NCBI GenBank assembly: GCA_021781515.1
Contig: JAJXWR010000004.1
Span: 1-61,241, forward strand
Reading direction: 5' to 3'
Origin: Pseudomonadota bacterium
GTDB taxonomy: Bacteria; Pseudomonadota; Gammaproteobacteria; Pseudomonadales; Moraxellaceae
DNA: 61,241 nt
A model generated the notes under the pieces. It did no database searches, was not told the DNA's origin, and saw nothing but the letters and a program-made list of their open reading frames with translations. Position numbers and translations under genes: made by a program. Positions within the stretch are counted from its first letter, which is position 1; every line of letters begins with the position of its first letter. Positions 41,054 through 53,367 of this stretch are shown here, piece after piece.

Positions 41054-41644
41054 ATGCCCTTTACCGTTTTTGATACCCCGCTAATCAACACCCTGCTGCG
41101 CTGGATCTCAGTGTTCACCTTGAAGCTCCTGGGCTGGAAAATCATTGGCAGCAAACCCACTGAACCCCGCTACGTCATCGTCGCCGCCCCACACACCAGC
41201 AACTGGGACTTCCCCTTTACCCTGATGGTTTGCTTCGCCCTGAACCTCAACGTCCACTGGATGGGAAAATCCAGCCTGTTTCCACCGTTTATTGGCGGTG
41301 TCATGCGCTGGCTAGGCGGCATTCCCGTCAACAGGGAACAAGCCGGTCATATCGTCGACGCCACCATCACTGCTTTCAAAAATGCCAGCTACCTCACCGT
41401 CATCGTACCGCCTGAAGGCACCCGTGGCCGGGTCAGCACCTGGAAAACCGGATTTTATCGCATCGCTACCGGTGCCCAGGTCCCCATCGCCCTGGCCTTC
41501 CTCGACTTCAAGACCCGGCACGGCGGTATCGGCAAATTATTCTGGCCCACCGGTGACCTGTCCGTTGACCTCCCGGAAATTCAGGCTTTCTATGCCGGCA
41601 TCACCGGCAAACATCCCAACCGCTTTAATGCAGGCACTGATTAA
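41054..41644 (+). CDS. 1-acylglycerol-3-phosphate acyltransferase-family protein
   Basis: A 196-residue PlsC-type acyltransferase. Motif I is 'PHTSNWDFPF' (HxxxxD) and motif III 'PPEGTRGRV' (EGTR), with the hydrophobic 'FIGGVMRWLGGIPVNREQ' between them. It likely acylates a lysophospholipid or related glycerolipid in the inner membrane. It is short for PlsC (about 240) and has no clear N-terminal membrane anchor beyond 'LLRWISVFTLKLLGW'. It is separated by 93 bp from DUF934 and may be transcribed alone. Confidence 0.88.
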   Translation: MPFTVFDTPLINTLLRWISVFTLKLLGWKIIGSKPTEPRYVIVAAPHTSNWDFPFTLMVCFALNLNVHWMGKSSLFPPFIGGVMRWLGGIPVNREQAGHIVDATITAFKNASYLTVIVPPEGTRGRVSTWKTGFYRIATGAQVPIALAFLDFKTRHGGIGKLFWPTGDLSVDLPEIQAFYAGITGKHPNRFNAGTD

Positions 41645-42106: not shown

Positions 42107-43195
42107 TTGAACACGTCTTTAGCTTCCGTCATTACTCCCCTGGCGCTTAGTATACTGATACGAAGTGCAACCGCAGAAAATCCGCAATTTTACCAGCAAG
42201 TTCAGGCCGACAGTTATGCCGAGCCTGTTCCCATCCATGCGTTTATTGGTGCCTGGCATGCGCCAGAACGTCCTGGACATCTGGCCTTTATGGATGCCTA
42301 TAGCGAAACAGGCATTCACTCAGGCAACAATACACTGGCATATACCCTGTCTGATGATTATATGCTGCGTTTCAGCCCAGCCCTGGCCAGCATGTATTAC
42401 GCCTACAAAAACACCCAGCCGCTGGCTTCCGGTGCCTATCCCGTTGCCTTACAGGTTCAACAAATAGCAACAGAAGGTATTCGCTGGGGACACCGCTGGT
42501 CGTTGCAGCCCTCTTGGTCACTCACCACGGGATTGAATCTGCTCAACGGCTTATCGCTGATTAACGGACAGACGAATGGAATGATCAATTATTCAGGGCC
42601 ACATTTCAATGCCAACAATTTTCCTGCGGCCAATCTGAACGTTGATTACGCCTACAGCAAACCCCATCTTCATGAGTCCGAACTGGATACACAATGGTAT
42701 CCCAATCAACCTACCGGAGTGGGCTATGCGCTCGATTTCGCTTTACACGGACAATGGTCCGCACTCCTTGCCGATCTGCAAGTCCGCAACCTTGCCGGCA
42801 AAATGCATTGGTCCACTGTTCCACAAACCAGTTATAGTGCCGACTGCCAGTGCGCTCAACATCTGTATAACTTTAGTGGATCCCTGCAAAAAGCCTCGCA
42901 TTATGAACAAACCTTACCCTGGGTTGCCGAAGGCCATCTGCAATGGCAAGTAGCACCCGGTGCAATCACCCTGGATTCATTCAGTAATCACTTGCAGACC
43001 CTGATACGTGCAGGAGTTGCAATCCCCTCCGGTTTACCTAAACTAAGCTTAAAACTGGCCATTGAACCACAAAGCCACTCTGTAGATTTAGAATGTAATT
43101 CGACCAATTTCAGTTTACGCTGGCAAAGCGATGCATTGAATATGAATCAATCCCATCGACTGGGTACCGCACTACGTTTCAATATCCCAATTTAA
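42107..43195 (+). CDS. Unknown exported, probably outer-membrane, protein
   Basis: I do not recognise this 362-residue protein. From TTG 42107 it begins with a signal-like segment ('SVITPLALSILIRSATA'). It continues with alternating hydrophobic/polar strands rich in Tyr, Trp and Asn ('SLQPSWSLTTGLNLLNGLSL') as in barrels and ends 'LGTALRFNIPI'. Histidines are frequent ('HGQWSALLADLQ', 'KASHYEQTLPW'), and there is a short 'CQC'. The TTG start is chosen only because it places the signal peptide correctly. It has an FNR site 262 bp upstream, so expression under low oxygen is likely. Confidence 0.6.
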   Translation: MNTSLASVITPLALSILIRSATAENPQFYQQVQADSYAEPVPIHAFIGAWHAPERPGHLAFMDAYSETGIHSGNNTLAYTLSDDYMLRFSPALASMYYAYKNTQPLASGAYPVALQVQQIATEGIRWGHRWSLQPSWSLTTGLNLLNGLSLINGQTNGMINYSGPHFNANNFPAANLNVDYAYSKPHLHESELDTQWYPNQPTGVGYALDFALHGQWSALLADLQVRNLAGKMHWSTVPQTSYSADCQCAQHLYNFSGSLQKASHYEQTLPWVAEGHLQWQVAPGAITLDSFSNHLQTLIRAGVAIPSGLPKLSLKLAIEPQSHSVDLECNSTNFSLRWQSDALNMNQSHRLGTALRFNIPI

Positions 43196-43204
43196 AATAA
43201 AAAA

Positions 43205-43224
43205 CCCGGTATTCACCGGGCCTT
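43205..43224. terminator. Bidirectional terminator
   Basis: CCCGGT (43205-43210), four-base loop, ACCGGG (43215-43220), with A-rich bases on the left and CCTTTT on the right. It lies between the convergent genes ending at 43195 and 43248 and can serve both. Confidence 0.8.
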
Positions 43225-43247
43225 TTATAACATGATTTATCAAAATA

Positions 43248-46200
43248 TCACTGATACATCTTGAACCAGTTTTGCGCCAAGGCCATACAGTAAGGAACTT
43301 CAACGACCCCATGAATTGTTTTCAGCATAGCCCCCAACCCATTCCTTGCATCCGCAGCGGCGAGTGTCGCCCCTTCAGTCGTTGCCACTGACTGAGCCGA
43401 CCCCAAGGGCTGACCATTAATCAACGGATTTGCACTGGCAATTTGTGCGAGCAGTGTTGGATTTTGTGCCGCAGAACCCGCAGAGACCGCAGCCTGACTG
43501 ACTGCTGCACTGCTGTATTGGGCAACTGCCTCCCCACCACTGGTGTTTGCTGCAGGGGTTACCCCTGTATCAACAGCCGAGGCAGTGGCGGTACCAATAC
43601 TTAGGCTTAGAACCTGTGCCCCAGCCCCAACTTTCTGCATACTGGCATAAGCCGCCTGAGTTGCCGTTGCAACAGGCACGGCATTATGTGTCGCCAGCTC
43701 TACCCCACCGACATAAGTCGCCACAAAAGCAGTGGCATACGAAGAGAAGCCACCCTGAGTCAAAGCTGGATTAACTGTACTGGTAGCCAATGAACCTTGC
43801 AATGCCTGCGCAGGGCCATTGATCAGAAAGGTATTTTCCAGACTGGCACCATACATGGACGCATTCCCGGCAGCGGTGTCAGCCGCATACACCGTTGAAG
43901 TAGTTTGCTGTACCTGGTTTAATGCATCCGCCGTGGCTTTCCCGGCTTCAGCACCAGAAATGGCGGTTACTGCCGCTACGGTTGCAGCAGCCACGGCTGG
44001 CAAATACGTAGTGTTGTTGGCCAGCGTAGTCATCGCCGCCGTCACAATGGCATTAACAATGGCACCGGTATCCGTTGTATCGCCGCCAATCGCTGCGCCA
44101 GCGGCAGTTGACGCCGCTGTCTGAATACTTGTAGCAGTTGCCCCCGATTTAACGGCCGCCGCCCCTGCAGCAGCCAGTGCCGCGTTATAAGCTGCGGTAT
44201 AGAGGTTGCTCGTATAGCCACCCACCGAGTATTTCATGACTGCGGCCGAAACTGCATTGATGACACTTGGGGACAGCGAATTAACAGACAACATCCCTGT
44301 AGCCGCCGCCGTTGCTGCGGAAGCGACTGTGGCGGTTTCCCGAGTCCAACTGCCAGCAGCGCCTGTTTGATTGTCGGTCATTTGCCCCACAATAGCCTGA
44401 ACCGAAGACATACCAAACGTTGTATTCATCAGACCTGTTTGCGTACTGACAAATGCATCATTGAATACCTGTGCCACATCACCCTGTAATGTCGCTTTGT
44501 ACTGGCCTGAATAAGCGCTTTCGAAGACACTGGTCATGTCTTTAAGATAGTTGCTCTGTGCGGTACTCACCAGTGCGCTAAAATTGCTCAGACTAGGAAT
44601 AGCTGCCGCATTTAACGGGGTTGGGAACTGTCCGGTACTGGTTCCCAATGGTTGCGAAGACCCCGTGGCCGCATCCGCCTCTGAGGTAATCACCCCGACT
44701 TCAGGCGTACCCAAATCCACCATAGCGACTGGTGCCGTCAACGGATTAGTCGGCAACGCCATGGCCTGACCTAGATTTCCATACATCAACACTGTATTTT
44801 GCAAGAAAAACACCGTAGGATCACCAGCCCCACCACACATCAACAACGGCATTTTCGGTACATAGTTGCGCAGATCAAAGCGTTTCAATATCTTGCGTAA
44901 CGGATTTTGCGGGTTGGCTGCGGTCGCCAGATTGGTCGTCTGGAAATAATTAGTCAGATTCGTGGAATTGGTAAAGGTTGGATCACTAAAGGACGTCAAC
45001 GCCGACATCTGCGAGGCACCGTCCGGATTGGTCTGTTCATCCTGAAGATAAGCCTCACGGAAGCTGTCTTGAAACAGATAATTCGTCGGATCCAGTCCAA
45101 GGCTTGCCAAAAACGGACTCGGCCCACCCGACTGCGGATTTTTGTAGGCATTTTGTGCCGCCGACAGTGGATACTTGCTGGCATCCGGCGCAGAGTCAAA
45201 CAAGGCATAGGTGGGTATCGCCTGTGGAGCACCACTCCCGGAAGGGGTCGTCAACTGCGTGTAAGTCTCAAATGCAGGCAAGGATTTATCCGCATAGGGA
45301 TAGAGCGGATTGAAGATCGTCGTCCCAACCAGAGAACCGCTGGCTAAATTCTCAAACGATTCAATCATCATGGAAGCAAACAGAGTCGACCCAGCACCCA
45401 CTGCACCATTAATCACGGAATCGCCAAAATTTTCCAGGGAATAGGCTCCTGAGAGGGTAGCTCCCGCTGTTGCTGGATGTCCATGATTTTGCAAATACTG
45501 CAAGGTCGCCATCGCCACAAAACCACCTTGAGAGTAACCGGTTACAAATAATTTGCCATTTTGCGAGATTGTTAATTTATTGGCACTGGCAATGGTCGGC
45601 AACACCTGTTGTGCCGCCGTCAGTGAATCAGCGGCATCCACCGGTTGCTGGTCACCATTCAGATAGGGATGATATTTCAGTGGTGAAGTGTTATATCCCG
45701 CATAATTGGGCCCGACAACAATATACCCTTGAGAAACAAAATTCGCCGCCAGTTCAGCCACATCAGCAGCCGCATCCTGGTCATTACCACCTAGCTGTGC
45801 CGGAACAGAAATATTCAGTGCCAGATCATAAAATCTGGAAATCGCCGTACCATGCGTATAAAGCACCGTTGGCCGGGCTCCAGAACATTGAGTCTGCGCT
45901 GCCGCACTGGCTCCCGCCGGAATACTGGGTAGCATCAAGGCACCCGAAGCCATCGTTGGGCTTCCAGTGCCATCTATCGTAGCATATTCATAACGATAAA
46001 TGCGTACATCACATACCGGTGCAGATTGTAACGACGACGCTACTGCATAAGGCTGAGTCTGTTTGTTGGCCGTATCATTAGGCAATCCTTCTCCATTAAG
46101 AATACCCGACTCCAGTGGCAAAATCATCGCCGCAGGAATAGGAGCGGTGCCAGTGATATCGCAATACATTGCGCCTTGAATACAGGTCACTGCTGGCTGC

Positions 46201-46406
46201 GGATCACCATTCGTATACTTGCCTGGAGTACTGGCCAAATCAGCAGCGCTATAGTAAGTACGGGCAGAACCAATTAAGGTATTCGACGACCCACTAAGGC
46301 CCTGACTCGTTGTCGCACTCGATGTTTGCGATTTATTACTACTGCCACATCCTGCCAACAAGGCCGTGAGCGCCACCCCACCTACTATTTTCCAATCGAC
46401 CTGCAT
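43248..46406 (-). CDS. Giant lipase-like alpha/beta-hydrolase lipoprotein with Ala-rich C-terminus
   Basis: A 1052-residue lipoprotein: signal 'MQVDWKIVGGVALTALLAGC' with lipobox LAGC. The first half is an alpha/beta hydrolase ('PTVLYTHGTAISRFYDLALN', nucleophile Ser in 'FVTGYSQGGFVAM') like secretory lipases. From about residue 580 the remaining 450 residues are low complexity, dominated by Ala, Thr, Ser and Gly ('AAAGAAAVKSGATATSIQ' type), with no known domain. Such a tail is unusual for a lipase and may be a fibrous or surface-binding region. ATG 46406 follows GGAGGG. It ends the envelope cluster that begins at 53367. Confidence 0.72.
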   Translation of the reverse strand: MQVDWKIVGGVALTALLAGCGSSNKSQTSSATTSQGLSGSSNTLIGSARTYYSAADLASTPGKYTNGDPQPAVTCIQGAMYCDITGTAPIPAAMILPLESGILNGEGLPNDTANKQTQPYAVASSLQSAPVCDVRIYRYEYATIDGTGSPTMASGALMLPSIPAGASAAAQTQCSGARPTVLYTHGTAISRFYDLALNISVPAQLGGNDQDAAADVAELAANFVSQGYIVVGPNYAGYNTSPLKYHPYLNGDQQPVDAADSLTAAQQVLPTIASANKLTISQNGKLFVTGYSQGGFVAMATLQYLQNHGHPATAGATLSGAYSLENFGDSVINGAVGAGSTLFASMMIESFENLASGSLVGTTIFNPLYPYADKSLPAFETYTQLTTPSGSGAPQAIPTYALFDSAPDASKYPLSAAQNAYKNPQSGGPSPFLASLGLDPTNYLFQDSFREAYLQDEQTNPDGASQMSALTSFSDPTFTNSTNLTNYFQTTNLATAANPQNPLRKILKRFDLRNYVPKMPLLMCGGAGDPTVFFLQNTVLMYGNLGQAMALPTNPLTAPVAMVDLGTPEVGVITSEADAATGSSQPLGTSTGQFPTPLNAAAIPSLSNFSALVSTAQSNYLKDMTSVFESAYSGQYKATLQGDVAQVFNDAFVSTQTGLMNTTFGMSSVQAIVGQMTDNQTGAAGSWTRETATVASAATAAATGMLSVNSLSPSVINAVSAAVMKYSVGGYTSNLYTAAYNAALAAAGAAAVKSGATATSIQTAASTAAGAAIGGDTTDTGAIVNAIVTAAMTTLANNTTYLPAVAAATVAAVTAISGAEAGKATADALNQVQQTTSTVYAADTAAGNASMYGASLENTFLINGPAQALQGSLATSTVNPALTQGGFSSYATAFVATYVGGVELATHNAVPVATATQAAYASMQKVGAGAQVLSLSIGTATASAVDTGVTPAANTSGGEAVAQYSSAAVSQAAVSAGSAAQNPTLLAQIASANPLINGQPLGSAQSVATTEGATLAAADARNGLGAMLKTIHGVVEVPYCMALAQNWFKMYQ

Positions 46407-46594
46407 TGCCTGCCCTCCGCATCGCAACTGTTTGTTATCGGTTCAGTAAATTGCCACTTAACACGTAGAATGCAGTGTAGATGAGGCTTGCAGGTTCTGC
46501 CATCCAGAACAACAAAAGATTTTAAATTCCTGATTCCAAGTGAATCACTCTGATTGTAGGCACGAAACCCAACCTCGCCCACTGTACCAGGGAG

Positions 46595-48499
46595 TCAGGG
46601 TGCGCAGGATTCCAGCTGGGCAGTCACGTTCCCCACAATGCCTGTGGTTTGTGCAATGTTCGTTGCGCTATTCAGGTTGTTAATATTTGCCGCCACCTCG
46701 CTATAAAAACCCGGCAAGCTCATCCATTGCGCCGGATTAGTACTATTGTCTGGCTGAATCTGCCCATTCGCCGCCACCGAATTACCAAACAACTGATACT
46801 GTACATTACTACCCCCGGCGTCCAGACGCAGTCGCACTGAGGCTGTATTGCTGTCCGCACCGATCACCACCCCTTGCAGAGCGGCTGGAATAGCCGCATT
46901 GGCCGGAAATACAAAAACGGGACTTAAATAATGCGCTGAACCATTAGAAAGAATATTCGCCACCACTCCCACTGGCCATTGCTGAACACCGTTGGCATCT
47001 TTCAGCGTCGCCGGATCAATGGTGGCACAGCTTTGCTTCAGATCAGTAACGATATTGCCATCAGGAAGAATGACCACCCCCAAAACCGTCGTACTTCCAG
47101 CCGCCGTTACTCCAGCAAAGCTCAACTGCAGGTACAACGGAAAAATCTGGTTGGGCCACAATGCAGGATCCAGTGTCGGTGCTACCGGCACCGTTCTGGT
47201 TAACGCATAGGTCCCCTGGATCGTACTGTTCTGCACAATGAACAGCCCCAGATCCGCCATGGGCACCTGGACACTGGCACCATAAGTACTCTGATAATCG
47301 GGCGCATTGTCTAAAATATGATCCCGGTATAAACGCCCCTGGGTAATCTGCAAATTTAAATTACCTGCTCCATTGGGCATGACCCACTGATTAGTGAACA
47401 AACCACCGCGACTGAAGGTCATAAAAGGCGTCATCTGCGTCGTCATCGATGCCAGTTGTGGATTCGTTAGCACCGATGTTGGTGAATTAGCGCAACCGCC
47501 AGCACACTTGGACAAAGAGGTGATGGCAAATCCCAACGACCGCCCGGCACGATCCAGCAACAGATACGGCAAGGCAAACAGTTCCTGACTATTGCTCGCA
47601 CTACTGCATGGCGAGGTGGTGCCTGTGGTTAAACTGCCATTAAACGCATCACAGCCAAAAAATCCAGCGGTATTCACCGTGGTATTGGCCAACAGACTTC
47701 CGGGATCGGTGTACAGTCCGGCGCGAGTAGCATTAAGCATGGCATCCAGGCGGTTCTGTGCCACCGCCTGCGATGGCAATGTCCGGCCGAGTGCATTGAT
47801 CAGCGGTAGCAGTTTCTGATTAAACGCCGATTCCGAGTCCGCAAAATCTGCCGCCCCCAGCACCGTCAGTGTCTGCGCTACTGCCGAAGTCCCCGCAACC
47901 GGCACCGCCAGCACACTGATCTGCTGCTGGTCGGAAGTGGTCAGACTGATCACCTGATCCGGTGCCGTGCTGCTCACCTGTGCCTGATCCGGATCAAACA
48001 GATAGAGCAGGCGGCTGACATTCAGACTGTAATTCGAGTAAGTGTCGCTTTTTTCATCGCCCGCCAACGTTCGCGGAGTGACCGCCAGATAACCACTACT
48101 GGTTAAACCATTGCTGTCTGAAGTCTGGGTCACTGGTGCCGTTCCCAGATCAATCTTATAAGTGCCCGTACTGTCTGCCAGATAAAAATCCACCTGACCA
48201 CTATCGCTTGGGCAACTGAATACCCCACCGGCATCGGTTACGGCCTGTACCGTCATATTGCTGTCGGCACAGGTATAATGCAAACCCGCCACCACGTCAT
48301 CCACAAATCGGCCGCTGATACAACTGACACTGGAACTCGGCGTACAGGCAGGTGTCAGGTTACCGGCACCTGAACCCGGCCCGGTTGTATTCAGACTGGA
48401 GGCTCCACCTGTACCACAGCCACTCAGCCCTCCGGACACCAGTAGCACCAGGCTACACCATACGCCAAGGATCACCCCCACATTCCTGCTCAACCGCAC
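46595..48499 (-). CDS. Large exported lipoprotein (FilF-like)
   Basis: A 634-residue lipoprotein: signal peptide ending 'LVLLVSGGLSGC', then a Gly/Thr-rich spacer and a beta-sandwich-like repeat 'GRFVDDVVAGLHYTC', often found at the start of surface adhesins. The rest resembles proteins annotated FilF in Acinetobacter; this is from memory and of low certainty. GTG 48499 has AGGAG with 5-base spacing and is preferred over GTG 48505. Cysteine pairs suggest disulfides. It lies between the giant lipase and the smaller lipoprotein, all on one strand. Confidence 0.6.
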   Translation of the reverse strand: MRLSRNVGVILGVWCSLVLLVSGGLSGCGTGGASSLNTTGPGSGAGNLTPACTPSSSVSCISGRFVDDVVAGLHYTCADSNMTVQAVTDAGGVFSCPSDSGQVDFYLADSTGTYKIDLGTAPVTQTSDSNGLTSSGYLAVTPRTLAGDEKSDTYSNYSLNVSRLLYLFDPDQAQVSSTAPDQVISLTTSDQQQISVLAVPVAGTSAVAQTLTVLGAADFADSESAFNQKLLPLINALGRTLPSQAVAQNRLDAMLNATRAGLYTDPGSLLANTTVNTAGFFGCDAFNGSLTTGTTSPCSSASNSQELFALPYLLLDRAGRSLGFAITSLSKCAGGCANSPTSVLTNPQLASMTTQMTPFMTFSRGGLFTNQWVMPNGAGNLNLQITQGRLYRDHILDNAPDYQSTYGASVQVPMADLGLFIVQNSTIQGTYALTRTVPVAPTLDPALWPNQIFPLYLQLSFAGVTAAGSTTVLGVVILPDGNIVTDLKQSCATIDPATLKDANGVQQWPVGVVANILSNGSAHYLSPVFVFPANAAIPAALQGVVIGADSNTASVRLRLDAGGSNVQYQLFGNSVAANGQIQPDNSTNPAQWMSLPGFYSEVAANINNLNSATNIAQTTGIVGNVTAQLESCAP

Positions 48500-48615
48500 G
48501 TTCACTCCTCAGCAATTTTTGGTAATTGACAGTGTAACGCTTTAGTGATGTGACTACTCTAAAACCTGTTTAATACGACCGCAGTCTTTCCCATTTATGT
48601 GCTGATTATCCGGGC

Positions 48616-49587
48616 TTACTGATTATCCGGAGACAGTGTATCCAGCACCCACTGCGCCTTCTCCATATTCGGGGAGTGCCGATAACCCATGGGTAACAAT
48701 AAAACGAGACGCCGGGTCGTACTCAAGGTTTGCAGTGGCCCGCGCCAACCTTGCCACTGCCAGTCATCTCCTGGACGGTACTCATTAAACCGGCTCAACT
48801 GTCCCGCCTGCATTTTTCCATTTCCGTCCAGACACACCACGCCCCAAAACCGTGGAGCCTGCAGCGGTTTGTCCCGGGCCCCATACATAAACAACTGCCA
48901 GTGCGTTGCCTGTCCCTTGGGTAATTGCAAGGCCAAGGCCAGCCAGTCTGCATTCAGTGGATGAAAATCTTCTGGCAACAGATTCAGGGTAACACCGGCA
49001 TGTACCTTGGTGTATGATTTTTTGTCGAGATGCTGTAGCCAATTGTTAAGTGCCGTGTACAGTGCCTGCGTCAACGGCGGCGCTGTAACCGGTGAATCCA
49101 GAAGTGGCTTCCAGACGGAGGGCTGCTGAAAAACCGGTTCCCGGGCTTTTTGACGGTCCAGCGCCCCTCCAGACCCGAGCACCACTTCCCCGGATCCGGC
49201 CTGGGCAATACCACTCGGAACCACGTAGAAATGCTGATTTTCTTCCGCCTGTTGACGTTCAAAGGTTTCGAGCGGGGTGTACGTTGCTTCCTCAGCGGCA
49301 GACCATACGGCTGCTGCCCCTGCCTTCGCCTGTTTTTTAGCCACTGTCACCGAACTGACAGCCGGATTACTGGACGTATGCGTCGGGGTCATCGCCACTC
49401 CCGCCTGCGTCATCAGTACGGCATGTCCTTGTGCATCCAGCATGATTGCCGGGCGACGCAGGGCAGCCTTCCGGTCTTTATCCGAAACTGCCTTATCCGA
49501 AACTGCCTTGTGGCTCAGACACCCACTCAGCATCAGACACAGGCCGCTGACGAATAACAGCGATTTTCTATAAGACCTAAGACCCAT
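48616..49587 (-). CDS. Exported lipoprotein of unknown family
   Basis: A 323-residue lipoprotein with lipobox LSGC after 'SLLFVSGLCLM'. Just after the Cys it has an in-frame duplication AVSDK-AVSDK (15-bp repeat at 49478-49507), then a low-complexity spacer and a C-terminal globular part ('FHPLNADWLALALQLPKGQA', 'WGVVCLDGNGKMQAGQLSRF'). No family is recognised. ATG 49587 follows AAGGGG. It sits between FadL-like and FilF-like genes and is probably co-transcribed. Confidence 0.6.
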   Translation of the reverse strand: MGLRSYRKSLLFVSGLCLMLSGCLSHKAVSDKAVSDKDRKAALRRPAIMLDAQGHAVLMTQAGVAMTPTHTSSNPAVSSVTVAKKQAKAGAAAVWSAAEEATYTPLETFERQQAEENQHFYVVPSGIAQAGSGEVVLGSGGALDRQKAREPVFQQPSVWKPLLDSPVTAPPLTQALYTALNNWLQHLDKKSYTKVHAGVTLNLLPEDFHPLNADWLALALQLPKGQATHWQLFMYGARDKPLQAPRFWGVVCLDGNGKMQAGQLSRFNEYRPGDDWQWQGWRGPLQTLSTTRRLVLLLPMGYRHSPNMEKAQWVLDTLSPDNQ

Positions 49588-49611
49588 ACTGCTGCCCCTT
49601 GCAGATGCCAC

Positions 49612-51291
49612 TCACCAGCGCGTACGATACGCCATACCCAGCAAAGTGACCTGTGCCAGTGTGGTTCCATCCAAGCCGGCATAGGGGTTATAAATGACAT
49701 TATTAATGCCTGTGGAATTAAAATTCGTGCTGGAATTGGCGGGAATAGTGTCCTTGCTGGTCAGGCGCATGATCGTAAAATCCAGGTCCGAATCTTTATC
49801 CAGTTTATAGCCAATCCCGGTTCCCCACATATGGGCGGTAGTAATAGGTACTAATGTACTTCTCTTATCCAGAGGGATCGCCGAACCGCGCTGCTCAAAG
49901 CCAAAACGAAACACCAGACGATCGGTTAATGACGTTTCCGTGCCAACACCCCATGACCACGGACTCTGGAAACCCAACGGCATATTGATAGAACTCAAGG
50001 TGGCGTTGGGCGACAGCAAACGGGCAATCTGCAACACCCGCGGCGTGCGGTCAAACTGAATAGGAAAACTGCTCCACTGCCCATAATCATCCCAGCTCAC
50101 GTCAAAATTGACCTTGAACGGATTCCAGAGGCGCCAGGAAATCCCCGTCTGAAAATGCTGCGGATAAGTGAGGTTCATCGACACCATCCCGGTTTCTTTC
50201 GCAGGAATAGAAGTCGGCAGCCCTAAAATAGACAACATAATGGAGCCCGTCGCCGATCCACCCACTGCATTGAACACATCCTGGGTTCCTTGCCCATAAT
50301 CAATTTCATATTTACCAATCAGATGCATCCGCGATTCAGAACGATAGACGGCCCCCCAGGAAAAACTGTCGTTAGGTTTCCAGAGCACCCCCAGGTTATA
50401 GCTCGGCGACATCGTATCCTGCATGGTCAGTTGCAATGAGGCCAATGGCGTAAAAGGCCCGACACTCTGCTGAGCATTACAGAAACCAAAGAGAAACAGG
50501 TCGGTAATAATGTTGCCATTGTTTTTGAATGGCGGACATACCGAATCATTGATCAGACGCATCAGCCCCAGCAACTCGTTGGGCGAACGAAACTGCGTAT
50601 CCAGGGACAATGCCTGATAGGAAATATTGAATGAGGCACCCACCGACCAGTGATCATTGACTTTCAGGCCCACCGAAGGTGAAAACAGGGTCAGCCGTTC
50701 CAGCGCCATCTGTTGCCCCAGATACACACCCGGATCAGTACCGTCACGATAAAATCCAGCGACCATCGGTGCGTACAATCCATTCGCAAAAGTCAGCTTC
50801 GACCCCGGCTCCTGCACCGACACCCCGAGCAACGGGGCAATCGCCGGCCCTGGCGGCAAATTGATGGTTTTGTCCAGCACGGGTACATAGAGCGACACCC
50901 CTTGCACATTACTCTGTCCGGTAATGAAATTTTTGCAATAACCAACATTGCCGTTTGGCTCCTGACACACCACCGGATCATCCGAATAGCCAAACACATT
51001 GTACCCCGGCGGCGCACTGAAGGTATTATGAATGGCAAAAATAGCACTCATTACCTGATAATCAATGTGCCGACCTTCCAACAGTGCCAGTCCAGCCGGA
51101 TTGTAGTTGATGGCGCTCACGCCCGGAGGATCCGCCGTTACCGCATTCCCCATGGCATCGGCCACCACGTCTACCGTCAGGTCAGTCGCCAGTGCCCCGG
51201 CCTGACTTTCCCGTGCCATTAAAACCAACAACACGCCAAGCAGACAGACACAACGGACTGCGCCCTGTTTCCAGAATCTGGACAAACTCAT
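49612..51291 (-). CDS. FadL/TodX-family outer-membrane transporter
   Basis: A 559-residue barrel that lets hydrophobic compounds (fatty acids, hydrocarbons) cross the outer membrane. The signal peptide is followed by the FadL-type hatch region 'SAINYNPAGLALLEGRHIDY', and further matches are 'SPSVGLKVNDHWSVGASFNI' and 'GTGIGYKLDKDSDLDFT'. It ends 'MAYRTRW' with a terminal aromatic residue. ATG 51291 follows GGAG (8-base spacing). Together with the lipase-like protein downstream it suggests uptake of lipid breakdown products, which is inference. Confidence 0.82.
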   Translation of the reverse strand: MSLSRFWKQGAVRCVCLLGVLLVLMARESQAGALATDLTVDVVADAMGNAVTADPPGVSAINYNPAGLALLEGRHIDYQVMSAIFAIHNTFSAPPGYNVFGYSDDPVVCQEPNGNVGYCKNFITGQSNVQGVSLYVPVLDKTINLPPGPAIAPLLGVSVQEPGSKLTFANGLYAPMVAGFYRDGTDPGVYLGQQMALERLTLFSPSVGLKVNDHWSVGASFNISYQALSLDTQFRSPNELLGLMRLINDSVCPPFKNNGNIITDLFLFGFCNAQQSVGPFTPLASLQLTMQDTMSPSYNLGVLWKPNDSFSWGAVYRSESRMHLIGKYEIDYGQGTQDVFNAVGGSATGSIMLSILGLPTSIPAKETGMVSMNLTYPQHFQTGISWRLWNPFKVNFDVSWDDYGQWSSFPIQFDRTPRVLQIARLLSPNATLSSINMPLGFQSPWSWGVGTETSLTDRLVFRFGFEQRGSAIPLDKRSTLVPITTAHMWGTGIGYKLDKDSDLDFTIMRLTSKDTIPANSSTNFNSTGINNVIYNPYAGLDGTTLAQVTLLGMAYRTRW

Positions 51292-51306
51292 CTCCGACGC
51301 TCCCAC

Positions 51307-52404
51307 TCAGTGCGTCTTCAACAGGCCAGAAACATCCATGGGCACTGTAATCGTGAAATCAATATTCGGAGTATCCTGCGTCAGCCCATAAGCAAAACCA
51401 ATGTTGATAATCTGCGACGGTGTCGTTCGGAAACCCACCGAGAAATTAATCGAAGCGGCCATCATCTGCGGGGTGCGGACGGTCGATCCCCCCTGAAAAT
51501 CATAGGTGGTTGCCAGCGAATAACTCATCTGGTACGACGTCGTCATCGACACATCGTAGTTCAGCGAATAACCCAATCCTGCCGAGGCAGAAAATGTAGC
51601 TCCCGGCTGAAATCCGGTTAACAACTGCCCGGCACGATTCTGGTTCAACCCCGAAACAGGCAGCGCCACGGCATCAGAAAATGAACCAAACACCACCACC
51701 GGGTCCAGCACCTTACTGAAACTGGCACCACCAGAAAATGAATAGTACCCCTTGCCGGTCGACAGATCTGAATTCAGATTGATGTTATAAGGACTCACAC
51801 CGGTCGCCGTCGAAAAGACGCCAAACAAGGTCGTCGACATGGAACCTCGTTCCTCAGGAACCGGTTGCCAGCGCGCCGAGAAGGCCGCATCACCAAGGGC
51901 CATGGTCGTCAGATTGTTCGTGGAGTCGTATTTTGCCACAAAGGGCAACACGGCATTGAATGTCAGATTATCCCAGACGCCGTAGTCCATGGACAAGGAA
52001 TTGGTCAGGGTATTCTGGGAATCTTCTTCGATACGGAATCGGGAAATCGACGAGGAGTTAGGCGTCAGGGCGATATCAATCGCCGCATTGTAATAATAGG
52101 TATAGTCAAAGGTATAGTAAAGCGTCGCATTTCCCTTTTTCAATAAGGAATAGGTCGGCTGACTCGCATCAAACACCTGTGCCAGGTTCTTTTCCGAAGA
52201 CGCATCGCCTGCCTGTTGCTTCAGGGCAGCTTCCGCCGCCTGCGTCCCTGTTGCCGGTTGTGCGGGTGCGGCACTCCCGGCCGACGCAGCAGGCGTTGCC
52301 GGCGCAGCGGATGCCGGTGCCGTACTGCTGGCCGCATCATCCGCCCATACTACTGGTGCCGTCAGCACGGCTAATGACAAGAAGGAAATACCCCACTGCT
52401 TCAT
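51307..52404 (-). CDS. Outer-membrane beta-barrel protein
   Basis: A 365-residue exported protein: signal 'LSLAVLTAPVVWA', a 50-residue Ala/Pro/Ser linker, then about ten strands typical of small barrels ('ATLYYTFDYTYYYNAAIDIA', 'DNLTFNAVLPFVAKYDS', 'MAASINFSVGFRTTPSQIIN'). It resembles the meta-pathway phenol-degradation transporter group but is not a clear member. The frame extends upstream to 52512; ATG 52404 gives a correct signal peptide. The stop is 15 bp before the FadL-like start. Confidence 0.65.
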   Translation of the reverse strand: MKQWGISFLSLAVLTAPVVWADDAASSTAPASAAPATPAASAGSAAPAQPATGTQAAEAALKQQAGDASSEKNLAQVFDASQPTYSLLKKGNATLYYTFDYTYYYNAAIDIALTPNSSSISRFRIEEDSQNTLTNSLSMDYGVWDNLTFNAVLPFVAKYDSTNNLTTMALGDAAFSARWQPVPEERGSMSTTLFGVFSTATGVSPYNINLNSDLSTGKGYYSFSGGASFSKVLDPVVVFGSFSDAVALPVSGLNQNRAGQLLTGFQPGATFSASAGLGYSLNYDVSMTTSYQMSYSLATTYDFQGGSTVRTPQMMAASINFSVGFRTTPSQIINIGFAYGLTQDTPNIDFTITVPMDVSGLLKTH

Positions 52405-52512
52405 AATCAACGGTCTCATCCTGAACTTGAGAGAGTATTCAACCCCGAATCGGAACTGAAACTGGAAAATATTATTTCGGGCGATTTGACGCCCCAACGC
52501 TGCCTGCATCAC

Positions 52513-53367
52513 TTAACGATCCCTGAAAAATGTTCGGGTGGGCACGAGAATCGGCGTTCCCGTCGTCGTGGCGTTACCCAAAGGCTGACCACTGCCGACA
52601 TCCAGTACCAAGTGCATAGAGGCCGCCTTGTCTGCATTGTGCTCCATGGTTTCCACCGGAAATTCATTCTGATAGACCTGCTGCAAAGTAATCAGGTCAA
52701 GCATTTCATCGGTGTAATAACGCATGTCTTCATCGGAAATCTGTAACTTGTTATCCGTATGGCCCTGAGCAAACACCAGAAACATCACGTTTCCATCCCA
52801 GACTTCCTTGAATCGTTCCTGGGGAAAACTAAGATTACCCAATGCAGGATCGGCGATGAACACCCGCTGATTGCGTACGGCTTTCACCACCACAAAATGT
52901 TTGAATCCCGAATAATGAATAGGGACCAGCGCCGGCTGCGTCAGATTTTTCAGATCATCGAAGGTTCCGCGAAAACCACCACTTTTATAGCCCAGCGCCG
53001 TCACCAGACGCTTCATATCCAGCAGGGAAAAACCGCGACGCTTGACAATCCGGTCCGTTTCTCCAAAACGTAACAACCCCTGCATCAACTGCCGTTCGTC
53101 AAAGGTACGGTCGAGATAACCATTGAGCAGTGTCGTCAACGAAGCGGAGCCGCAACTGTAGTCAAACGCCTGATGCACGATCCCCTTGAAATTGGTTTCA
53201 GACATCGGCTTGACCGCCACGGGCCGTTCGTAATCAACGTACTTGCTGTCTACCCGGGAATCCAGCGTTTGAAAGACGTAGATCGACCCAGGTTGCACAT
53301 CTTCAACCCGGGTTACGTGGCTTACGCCGTAAAACATGAGAAAAACGCCCATTATGACAGCTAACAT
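52513..53367 (-). CDS. Peptidase C39-like exported protein
   Basis: A 284-residue protein with an N-terminal membrane or signal segment ('LAVIMGVFLMFYGVSHVT') and a C39-like cysteine protease domain. The catalytic Cys is in 'QAFDYSCGSASLTTLLNGY', His in 'GFKHFVVVKAV' and Asp in 'IADPALGN'. C39 domains usually sit on bacteriocin ABC exporters, but here there is no ATPase, so it is a stand-alone periplasmic protease or transpeptidase. It is the first gene of the cluster running to 43248 and may process the envelope proteins encoded after it (inference). Confidence 0.8.
   Translation of the reverse strand: MLAVIMGVFLMFYGVSHVTRVEDVQPGSIYVFQTLDSRVDSKYVDYERPVAVKPMSETNFKGIVHQAFDYSCGSASLTTLLNGYLDRTFDERQLMQGLLRFGETDRIVKRRGFSLLDMKRLVTALGYKSGGFRGTFDDLKNLTQPALVPIHYSGFKHFVVVKAVRNQRVFIADPALGNLSFPQERFKEVWDGNVMFLVFAQGHTDNKLQISDEDMRYYTDEMLDLITLQQVYQNEFPVETMEHNADKAASMHLVLDVGSGQPLGNATTTGTPILVPTRTFFRDR

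Follow-up and report, generated by a model that had tools for sequence, protein, structure and literature searches.

Six consecutive genes in a Moraxellaceae genome, within a window of 61,241 nucleotides (the whole stretch of DNA that was analyzed), appear to encode a peptidase, two outer-membrane barrels and three lipoproteins, one of them lipase-like. Does such a cluster capture, hydrolyze and take up lipids, or does it make surface fibers? The original prediction had put forward both readings.

Gene content and conservation of the cluster

As predicted, the six ORFs lie on one strand, the minus strand, with short gaps of 0, 0, 0, 110 and 167 bp. The filB-like gene (52513..53367) encodes a 284-aa protein with an N-terminal signal/anchor followed by a stand-alone C39 cysteine peptidase. 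This protein matched NCBIfam FilB (8e-95), NCBIfam FapD (1e-34) and Pfam Peptidase_C39 (1.2e-18), and the FilB profile matched the double-glycine proteases 6mpz (1.7e-11) and 4ry2 (2.9e-10). Residues Q66, C72, H157 and D173, presumably the active-site Gln, Cys, His and Asp of a C39 peptidase, were invariant in 15 aligned sequences and again in 15 FilB sequences. No ABC exporter gene was found within the six-gene stretch, in agreement with the proposed C39-like protease without an exporter, and FilB is by homology a putative FapD-related C39 peptidase.

The filC-like gene (51307..52512; likely start near 52404, by eye) encodes a 401-aa protein that matched NCBIfam FilC (7e-97) and FapF (2e-11). 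Moreover, a 13-row FilC profile matched solved FapF at 1.4e-27, so that the second barrel of the original prediction can be assigned as a predicted FapF-type outer-membrane barrel. The 564-aa product of the filD-like gene (49612..51306) matched NCBIfam FilD (2e-225) and Pfam Toluene_X (4e-63), as expected for the FadL-type channel that had been proposed, and is predicted to be a FadL-family outer-membrane barrel.

Three candidate lipoproteins follow, each with a lipobox-like cysteine near the N terminus (by eye), as anticipated. The 331-aa protein in the filE position (48616..49611) gave no Pfam or NCBIfam match at E 0.1 and had BLAST relatives only in loci L032, L121 and L122. The 636-aa protein (46595..48505) matched NCBIfam FilF at 5e-34, below the cut-off; 31 of the 80 top-ranking named FilB loci contained a BLAST relative, and its AlphaFold model, of middling confidence, gave no PDB match at E<=0.001. 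The FilF family model was found in only 2 of 115 genomes and is thus a poor marker. The 1059-aa protein (43248..46427) is the lipase-like member: its residues 132-352 matched the solved esterase 3h2g/3h2h (about 3e-25), and a GYSQGG motif was seen by eye, which makes it a putative esterase or lipase. A terminator-like hairpin (43197..43228, minus strand) with a 14-pair stem and a T run stands directly 3' of this gene; the terminator scan overall showed no excess (10 sites versus a shuffle mean of 12.5), and the promoter scan (7 found, 10.2 expected) was uninformative.

The likeness to Acinetobacter Fil proteins noted in the original prediction is reflected in the NCBIfam homologies (NF050077-NF050081). 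The cluster shares with Acinetobacter Fil the order filB-C-D-E-F, with filB, filC and filD contiguous on one strand, best matches for B, C, D and F, and a FilA-family subunit in the genome. It differs in having no filA beside filB and in the addition of the esterase-like gene. All scores fell below the curated cut-offs (bits: FilB 317/475, FilC 325/630, FilD 749/970, FilF 119/390, FilA 50/220), and we call the cluster Fil-type because the curated models look tuned to Acinetobacter. Thus, five of the six genes are, judging from these homologies, the diverged filB-C-D-E-F operon of a putative pilus (Fil) system.

The expected co-occurrence of all six families held in part. Across these 80 FilB loci, filC was the next ORF after filB in 79 and filD lay within 4 kb downstream in 79, which is not chance; the single exception to this order (L178) is ended by a contig edge. 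In contrast, the esterase-like gene was present in 2 of the 80 loci. It adjoins filF also in L121 and L122, and its relatives among 115 genomes were confined to G000 and G035, in the latter off the fil contig. The lipase was therefore rejected as a core member, and the sixth gene is a lineage-specific neighbor.

These data bear directly on lipid uptake, in which the esterase would free fatty acids, the lipoproteins would bind lipid, and FilD together with FilC would import. Such a role would suit the FadL-family barrel, the esterase-like lipoprotein beside filF in L121 and L122, an alpha/beta-hydrolase gene that adjoins the fil locus L031, and the fibers attributed to Fil that coat triacylglycerol-grown cells of Acinetobacter Tol 5, as reported in a passage of PMC3498257. 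However, the lipase is not conserved with the barrel, genome G251 carries filB-filC without an adjoining filD, FilC matches the FapF polypeptide transporter, and neither the C39 peptidase nor the co-occurring leader described below would have a role. We thus consider lipid uptake highly improbable as the main function, and this part of the original prediction is not supported. Since FilB is kin to FapD and FilC is of FapF type, we read the cluster as an exporter of proteins. A lipid context is possible, in view of FadL-type FilD and the triacylglycerol-grown Tol 5 fibers.

A leader shared by many proteins

Seven proteins of the same genome, with genes outside the window on three contigs other than the fil contig, carry a leader of the pattern L(-12)..L(-7)..V(-4)..G(-2)Q(-1), spaced like the double-glycine leaders of C39 peptidases. 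The leader corresponds to Pfam DUF6160, a domain of unknown function, which 40 of the 42 aligned members matched at E<=0.001. A full-length Pfam scan of the own-genome proteins placed DUF6160 above the cut-off in two and below it in one, and found none at 0.01 in two proteins of contig C22, so that some leaders are called from our own profile alone. In a table of 97 leaders, for which the search pattern partly fixed positions -12, -7 and -2, G(-2) occurred in 90, D(-10) in 72 and V(-4) in 62, while position -1 was Q in 84, E in 6, A in 4, and S, R or Y in 1 each. The table includes six hand-added leaders in which -1 is A, S or R, and omits L064 8693, whose leader was in the wrong register; alignment A4 left out two false motif matches.

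As given in part of PMC6959990, the C39 leader consensus is L(-12)xxxE(-8)L(-7)xxxxG(-2)G(-1), with -4 as a specificity site, and the cleft of PCAT is narrow and Gly specific. The leaders found here share the hydrophobic residues at -12 and -7, the -4 site and Gly at -2 (the first, second and last partly fixed by the pattern), but not the Gly, sometimes Ala, at -1. The system resembles PCAT/AMS bacteriocin exporters in C39 fold family and leader spacing, and differs from them in lacking an ABC transporter part, in the periplasmic processing expected and in this Gln, which counts against the export reading. Bacteriocin-leader models in family libraries did not match the leader except for one pheromone_VP1 hit at 0.017, so the double-glycine reading is based on spacing.

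The leader tracked strong FilC matches. Of 115 order-level genomes, a set that also supplied the leader alignment, the leader (E<=1e-3) occurred in 14, each of which belongs to the group of 15 whose FilC match reached E<=1e-45. In 274 class-level genomes, the leader (E<=1e-3) and FilC (E<1e-70) selected the same six, a test with four new positives only, and 21 other genomes of this set with weaker FilC-profile matches gave no leader at E<=0.01. Tail probabilities overstate these associations because related genomes are not independent. Leader matches of 0.003-0.04 in G048, G113 and G032 and of 0.003-0.01 in G340, G364 and G367 were taken as chance. A leader gene was present in 60 of the 80 loci; none stands beside filB in the window. 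The 91 bodies behind the leader fell into 36 BLAST clusters, i.e., the leader sits on many unrelated bodies.

A related arrangement was seen in Fap (FapA-F, Pseudomonas), which likewise has a FapD-type C39 peptidase, a FapF-type barrel and a C39-type leader on a neighboring secreted protein; FilB and FilC are distant relatives whose scores fall far short of the Fap cut-offs. The same leader pattern, ending in GG, GR or GK, was present in ORFs next to FapD-type C39 genes, which suggests that these ORFs are the FapD target. The strict leader pattern reached 9 of 25 non-Fil C39 loci, and the profile detected no FapE-type leader at 4 of the 25 (L216, L217, L218 and L226). An AG-ending look-alike leader was noticed by eye in L216 and L226. 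Fil differs from Fap in its GQ-ending leader on many scattered proteins, in the additional FadL-type FilD and lipoproteins, and in having a FilA relative solved as a pilus-like filament.

The leader might instead be an export or assembly element that another protease cuts, co-occurring with FilB-FilC through the shared fiber. Gln at -1 would fit such a protease, as would the FilA-like proteins without leader beside filD in L035 and L036 (by eye). However, the leader has the spacing of C39 leaders, recurs in a GG-ending form next to FapD-type genes and is spread over 36 body clusters, all of which argues against this reading, and we regard cleavage by another protease as quite unlikely.

FilA-family proteins and a solved filament

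FilA-family matches in the own genome lay on contigs C124 and C22 (best 4e-13), not beside filB. In Acinetobacter Tol 5, the band of FilA is reported to have been identified through Edman degradation (PMC3498257). The short FilA matched PDB 9xfv_A at 2.3e-12, an environmental filament deposited as 'bacteria pilus (like)', 'Pilus-like-alpha', with 25 chains; the longer FilA profile A6 gave no sequence match to it. Residue 1 of the 9xfv chain (entry numbering 38-210) corresponds to the position right after GQ, and GQ directly preceded the 9xfv start in 11 of 11 aligning ORFs (7 distinct genes by our reading), with the caveat that where the chain starts may depend on which residues were built into the model. 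By alignment, 9xfv is thus a leaderless FilA relative whose chain begins exactly after the leader. Neither its gene nor its operon was found in 390 genomes with a weak query, an absence that proves nothing.

FilA is modelled as a folded beta protein. In a VIA-align search with FilA, 9xfv ranked fifth (Z 5.1, rmsd 2.8 over 96 residues); the top match, FapF (Z 5.8), had an rmsd of 7.5 and was judged meaningless. These structures bear on the possibility of a Fap-like functional amyloid, built from FilA-type proteins that are unfolded during export, in place of a pilus of folded subunits. The FapD/FapF homology and the FapE-type leaders speak for an amyloid, but both the folded FilA model and the pilus-like deposition of 9xfv speak against it, and we hold it to be unlikely. 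Taken with the Fil homologues and the FapD/FapF kinship of FilB and FilC, a FilA relative solved as a filament favors the surface-fiber system that the original prediction had offered.

A proposed export route and its implications

On the basis of the homologies, the leader pattern, its co-occurrence with FilC and the mature-chain start in a solved homologous filament, the cluster probably encodes a FapD/FapF-like machinery that exports and assembles Fil pili, with FilB cutting the leader and FilC exporting. FilA-type subunits, encoded elsewhere in the genome, would carry a signal sequence and, behind it, a leader of about 16 residues that usually ends in Gly-Gln. Once the subunits have reached the periplasm, FilB would dock this leader as the C39 domains of ABC transporters dock double-glycine leaders, and would cut after Gly-Gln; the trimmed subunits would then leave through FilC, the FapF-like pore, and build fibers. 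FilD, FilE and FilF may act as accessories, as may the esterase of this lineage, perhaps in anchoring, tip function or lipid-surface work. These steps of cutting and export, like the accessory roles, are inferred.

We lean somewhat toward a wider version of this route, in which FilB/FapD peptidases serve a general two-step pathway of signal sequence, periplasmic C39 leader reading and exit by a FapF-type pore. DUF6160 would then be an address tag for up to about 19 scattered, unrelated cargoes per genome, not for one fiber.

What is new here is most likely a Fap-type export variant with an unrecognized leader common to many cargoes. The substrate of FapD was described as "yet to be determined" in 2018 in a passage of PMC6173800, and a readable leader opens simple cleavage experiments both for this substrate and for the making of Fil pili. 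Moreover, DUF6160 would be given a role, an orphan filament structure would be tied to a gene system, and the leader would predict the exported set in any FilB-FilC genome, among them species of Acinetobacter, Pseudomonas and Marinobacter. If true, leader-cleaving export would account for the biogenesis of these bacterial pili, a family that is poorly understood.

The Fil-type cluster and its core

The six minus-strand genes at 43248-53367 are present as described in the original prediction. Family scans placed the C39 peptidase closest to FilB and second closest to FapD (C39 peptidase of the Pseudomonas Fap amyloid system), the following barrel closest to FilC and more distantly to FapF (the Fap barrel), and the FadL-family barrel closest to FilD. 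They also recognized a FilF-like lipoprotein and left the lipoprotein in the filE position unmatched, while the last lipoprotein (43248-46427, minus) resembles a known esterase. Since every Fil score falls under its curated cut-off, we term the cluster diverged, Fil-type. The esterase-like protein carries a long Ala-rich stretch (approximately residues 640 to 1010) outside the region matched by relatives, the best match stopping at residue 621. Convergent to the cluster, a plus-strand gene (42107-43195, TTG start) adjoining an acyltransferase gene at 41054-41644 encodes a 362-aa protein with a signal-like N-terminus, for which Pfam and NCBIfam scans gave no match.

A FilB search of named genomes returned at least 555 relatives, the best 80 of which, from Acinetobacter, Marinobacter, Pseudomonas, Alcanivoracaceae, Agitococcus and others, were retained for locus comparison. 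Among these 80 loci, filC was the next ORF after filB in 79 and filD lay within 4 kb downstream in 79, the exception to this order being L178, which is cut by a contig end. Sixty loci held a gene for a leader (profile E ≤ 0.01), a stretch of about 16 residues after the signal sequence that usually ends in GQ. Relatives of the window's FilF occurred in 31 loci, and those of its FilE and its lipase in 2 each. The grouping thus holds for filB-filC-filD but not for the lipase. The two loci with FilE and lipase relatives (L121 and L122), nearest to the window among the matches listed (77% in FilB), share the order leader gene, filB-C-D-E-F, inverted leader gene, lipase; the window lacks a leader gene at both places. 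In compared genome G251, filB-filC stands without filD alongside; in G322 filC is followed by filD, and in G363 and G123 the contig stops after filC, so that the presence of filD is unreadable there. FilB and FilC therefore look like the core of the system.

Co-occurrence and pattern of the leader

At order level (115 genomes), 15 genomes matched FilC at E ≤ 1e-45, and all 14 genomes in which the leader was found (E ≤ 1e-3) are among them; in the remaining one, G058, a gene adjacent to filB matched the leader at 0.027. The putative pilus subunit family FilA occurred in 12 of the 115, every one of which also matched FilB (6e-79 or better) and FilC (7e-91 or better); G072 and G101, from the same family as the window, had neither FilA nor such a FilB-FilC pair. 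In an out-of-sample test at class level (274 genomes), strong FilC (E < 1e-70) and the leader (E ≤ 1e-3) selected the identical six genomes: G000, G035 and the new G123, G251, G322 and G363, which hold 4, 16, 5 and 19 leader matches (E ≤ 0.01), respectively. A further 21 of the 274 genomes matched the FilC profile less well (E of 9e-21 or lower, but above 1e-38), and none of these gave a leader match at E ≤ 0.01. Tail probabilities of co-occurrence were 4e-17 (order) and 4e-9 (class), as plain values that ignore kinship.

Counting back from the proposed cut, the 97 leaders have L or M at -7 (97), G at -2 (90), Q at -1 (84), D at -10 (72) and V at -4 (62), and information content, 3.7 bits at -1, drops to 1.3 bits at +1. 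This conservation is partly built in because the register-finding pattern restricted -12, -7, -2 and -1 to small residue sets and gave preference to D/E/N/S at -10 and to certain residues at -4. Position -8 was unconstrained; in 32 leaders from loci not used in the leader alignment A4 (from G251, G363, G322, G123, G016 and contig C16 of the window's own genome), 19 have E at -8 and 28 have V at -4. ABC-transporter C39 substrates have the published consensus L(-12)xxxE(-8)L(-7)xxxxG(-2)G(-1), in which -10 to -4 form a short helix (PMC6959990). In an AlphaFold model of FilA from L122 (mean pLDDT 77), residues 28-35, corresponding to -10 to -3, form a helix in a part predicted with low confidence. 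The Gln at -1 sets the Fil leader apart from known C39 sites.

In the Fap system, Rouse et al. (2017; PMC5557850) showed that FapC secretion requires the FapD Cys, detected no FapE peptides within the first ~70 residues and left the FapD target open; according to a 2018 review, that target had still to be determined (PMC6173800). Two named Pseudomonas genomes have a FapD above its cut-off; in both, the ORF after fapD has LSDQELSQLRGR behind a signal-like stretch, and comparable strings ending in GG, GR or GK adjoin other FapD-type genes. A leader-like string was present at 21 of 25 non-Fil C39 loci (12 profile seeds, 9 found by the profile at E 4e-9 to 1e-3). With a stricter pattern, 11 of the 59 adjacent ORFs matched, at 9 of the 25 loci, compared with none of 277 distant ones and 1 of 812 other signal-like ORFs. 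Our best guess is that FapE is the target of FapD and that the Fil leader is a GQ cousin of the FapE-type leader.

Tagged proteins and a leaderless filament

The leader corresponds to Pfam DUF6160 (function unknown), matched by 40 of the 42 A4 rows at E ≤ 0.001; within the literature searched, a single paper uses this name. Since the leader precedes 91 bodies falling into 36 BLAST clusters, it behaves as a tag. In the window's own genome, a draft in 142 contigs, the A4 profile found seven proteins, of which C22 encodes four, C124 two and C16 one. FilA-family matches likewise lie away from the window's contig, two each on C124 and C22. The C16 protein (L104:2199-3071, minus) starts with an MshE-type c-di-GMP-binding domain (NF053729, 3e-21), followed by a hydrophobic stretch and the leader, and may couple a cytoplasmic sensor to a tagged part across the membrane. 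On C22, a tandem of four leader proteins of 208 to 814 aa (L005:5532-11359, plus) lies directly downstream of genes resembling, by eye, flagellar fliM, fliP, fliR and flhB. Groups of small leader proteins (mostly ~100 to 250 aa) with differing bodies occur at L098, L099, L103 and other loci of G251, G363 and G123; a domain scan of two found only DUF6160.

Beside filD, large FilA-like proteins without a leader are encoded at L035:4523-7384 (plus, 953 aa) and L036:2165-6790 (minus, 1541 aa). By eye, the post-leader residues of other FilA proteins come straight after their signal peptide, as if they were born without a leader.

A Foldseek search with the FilA model ranked 9xfv_A, from the PDB entry of a pilus-like filament, at the top (E 0.029), and a profile built on the short FilA proteins of Pseudomonas-type loci (12 sequences) matched this chain at 2.3e-12. 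Residue 1 of 9xfv_A falls on profile position 39, directly past G37-Q38 (register counted by hand on the profile consensus), and its last residue on the final position; the entry numbers the chain 38-210. Because the chain starts directly after GQ and is numbered from 38, a FilA relative makes a filament in exactly the leaderless form. Our literature search found no publication describing 9xfv.

Lipid context and proposed secretion route

The original prediction also offered lipid capture, hydrolysis and uptake. A lipid context is plausible, since Acinetobacter Tol 5 is covered with long fibres attributed to Fil on triacylglycerol and carries sparse ones on other substrates (PMC3498257), and FilC and FilF are reported to rise in Acinetobacter biofilm and FilF in pellicle (PMC8792954, PMC3203104). 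However, it leaves the peptidase and the leader unaccounted for. The analysis shows the homologies, the leader pattern, its co-occurrence with the cluster and where the mature chain begins; from there we infer that FilB and the leader are enzyme and substrate, that FilC is the pore, and that the other genes have accessory functions. Most likely, the signal sequence would drive export of the precursor, FilB would cut the leader after GQ, and the trimmed cargo would cross FilC and assemble into a fibre.
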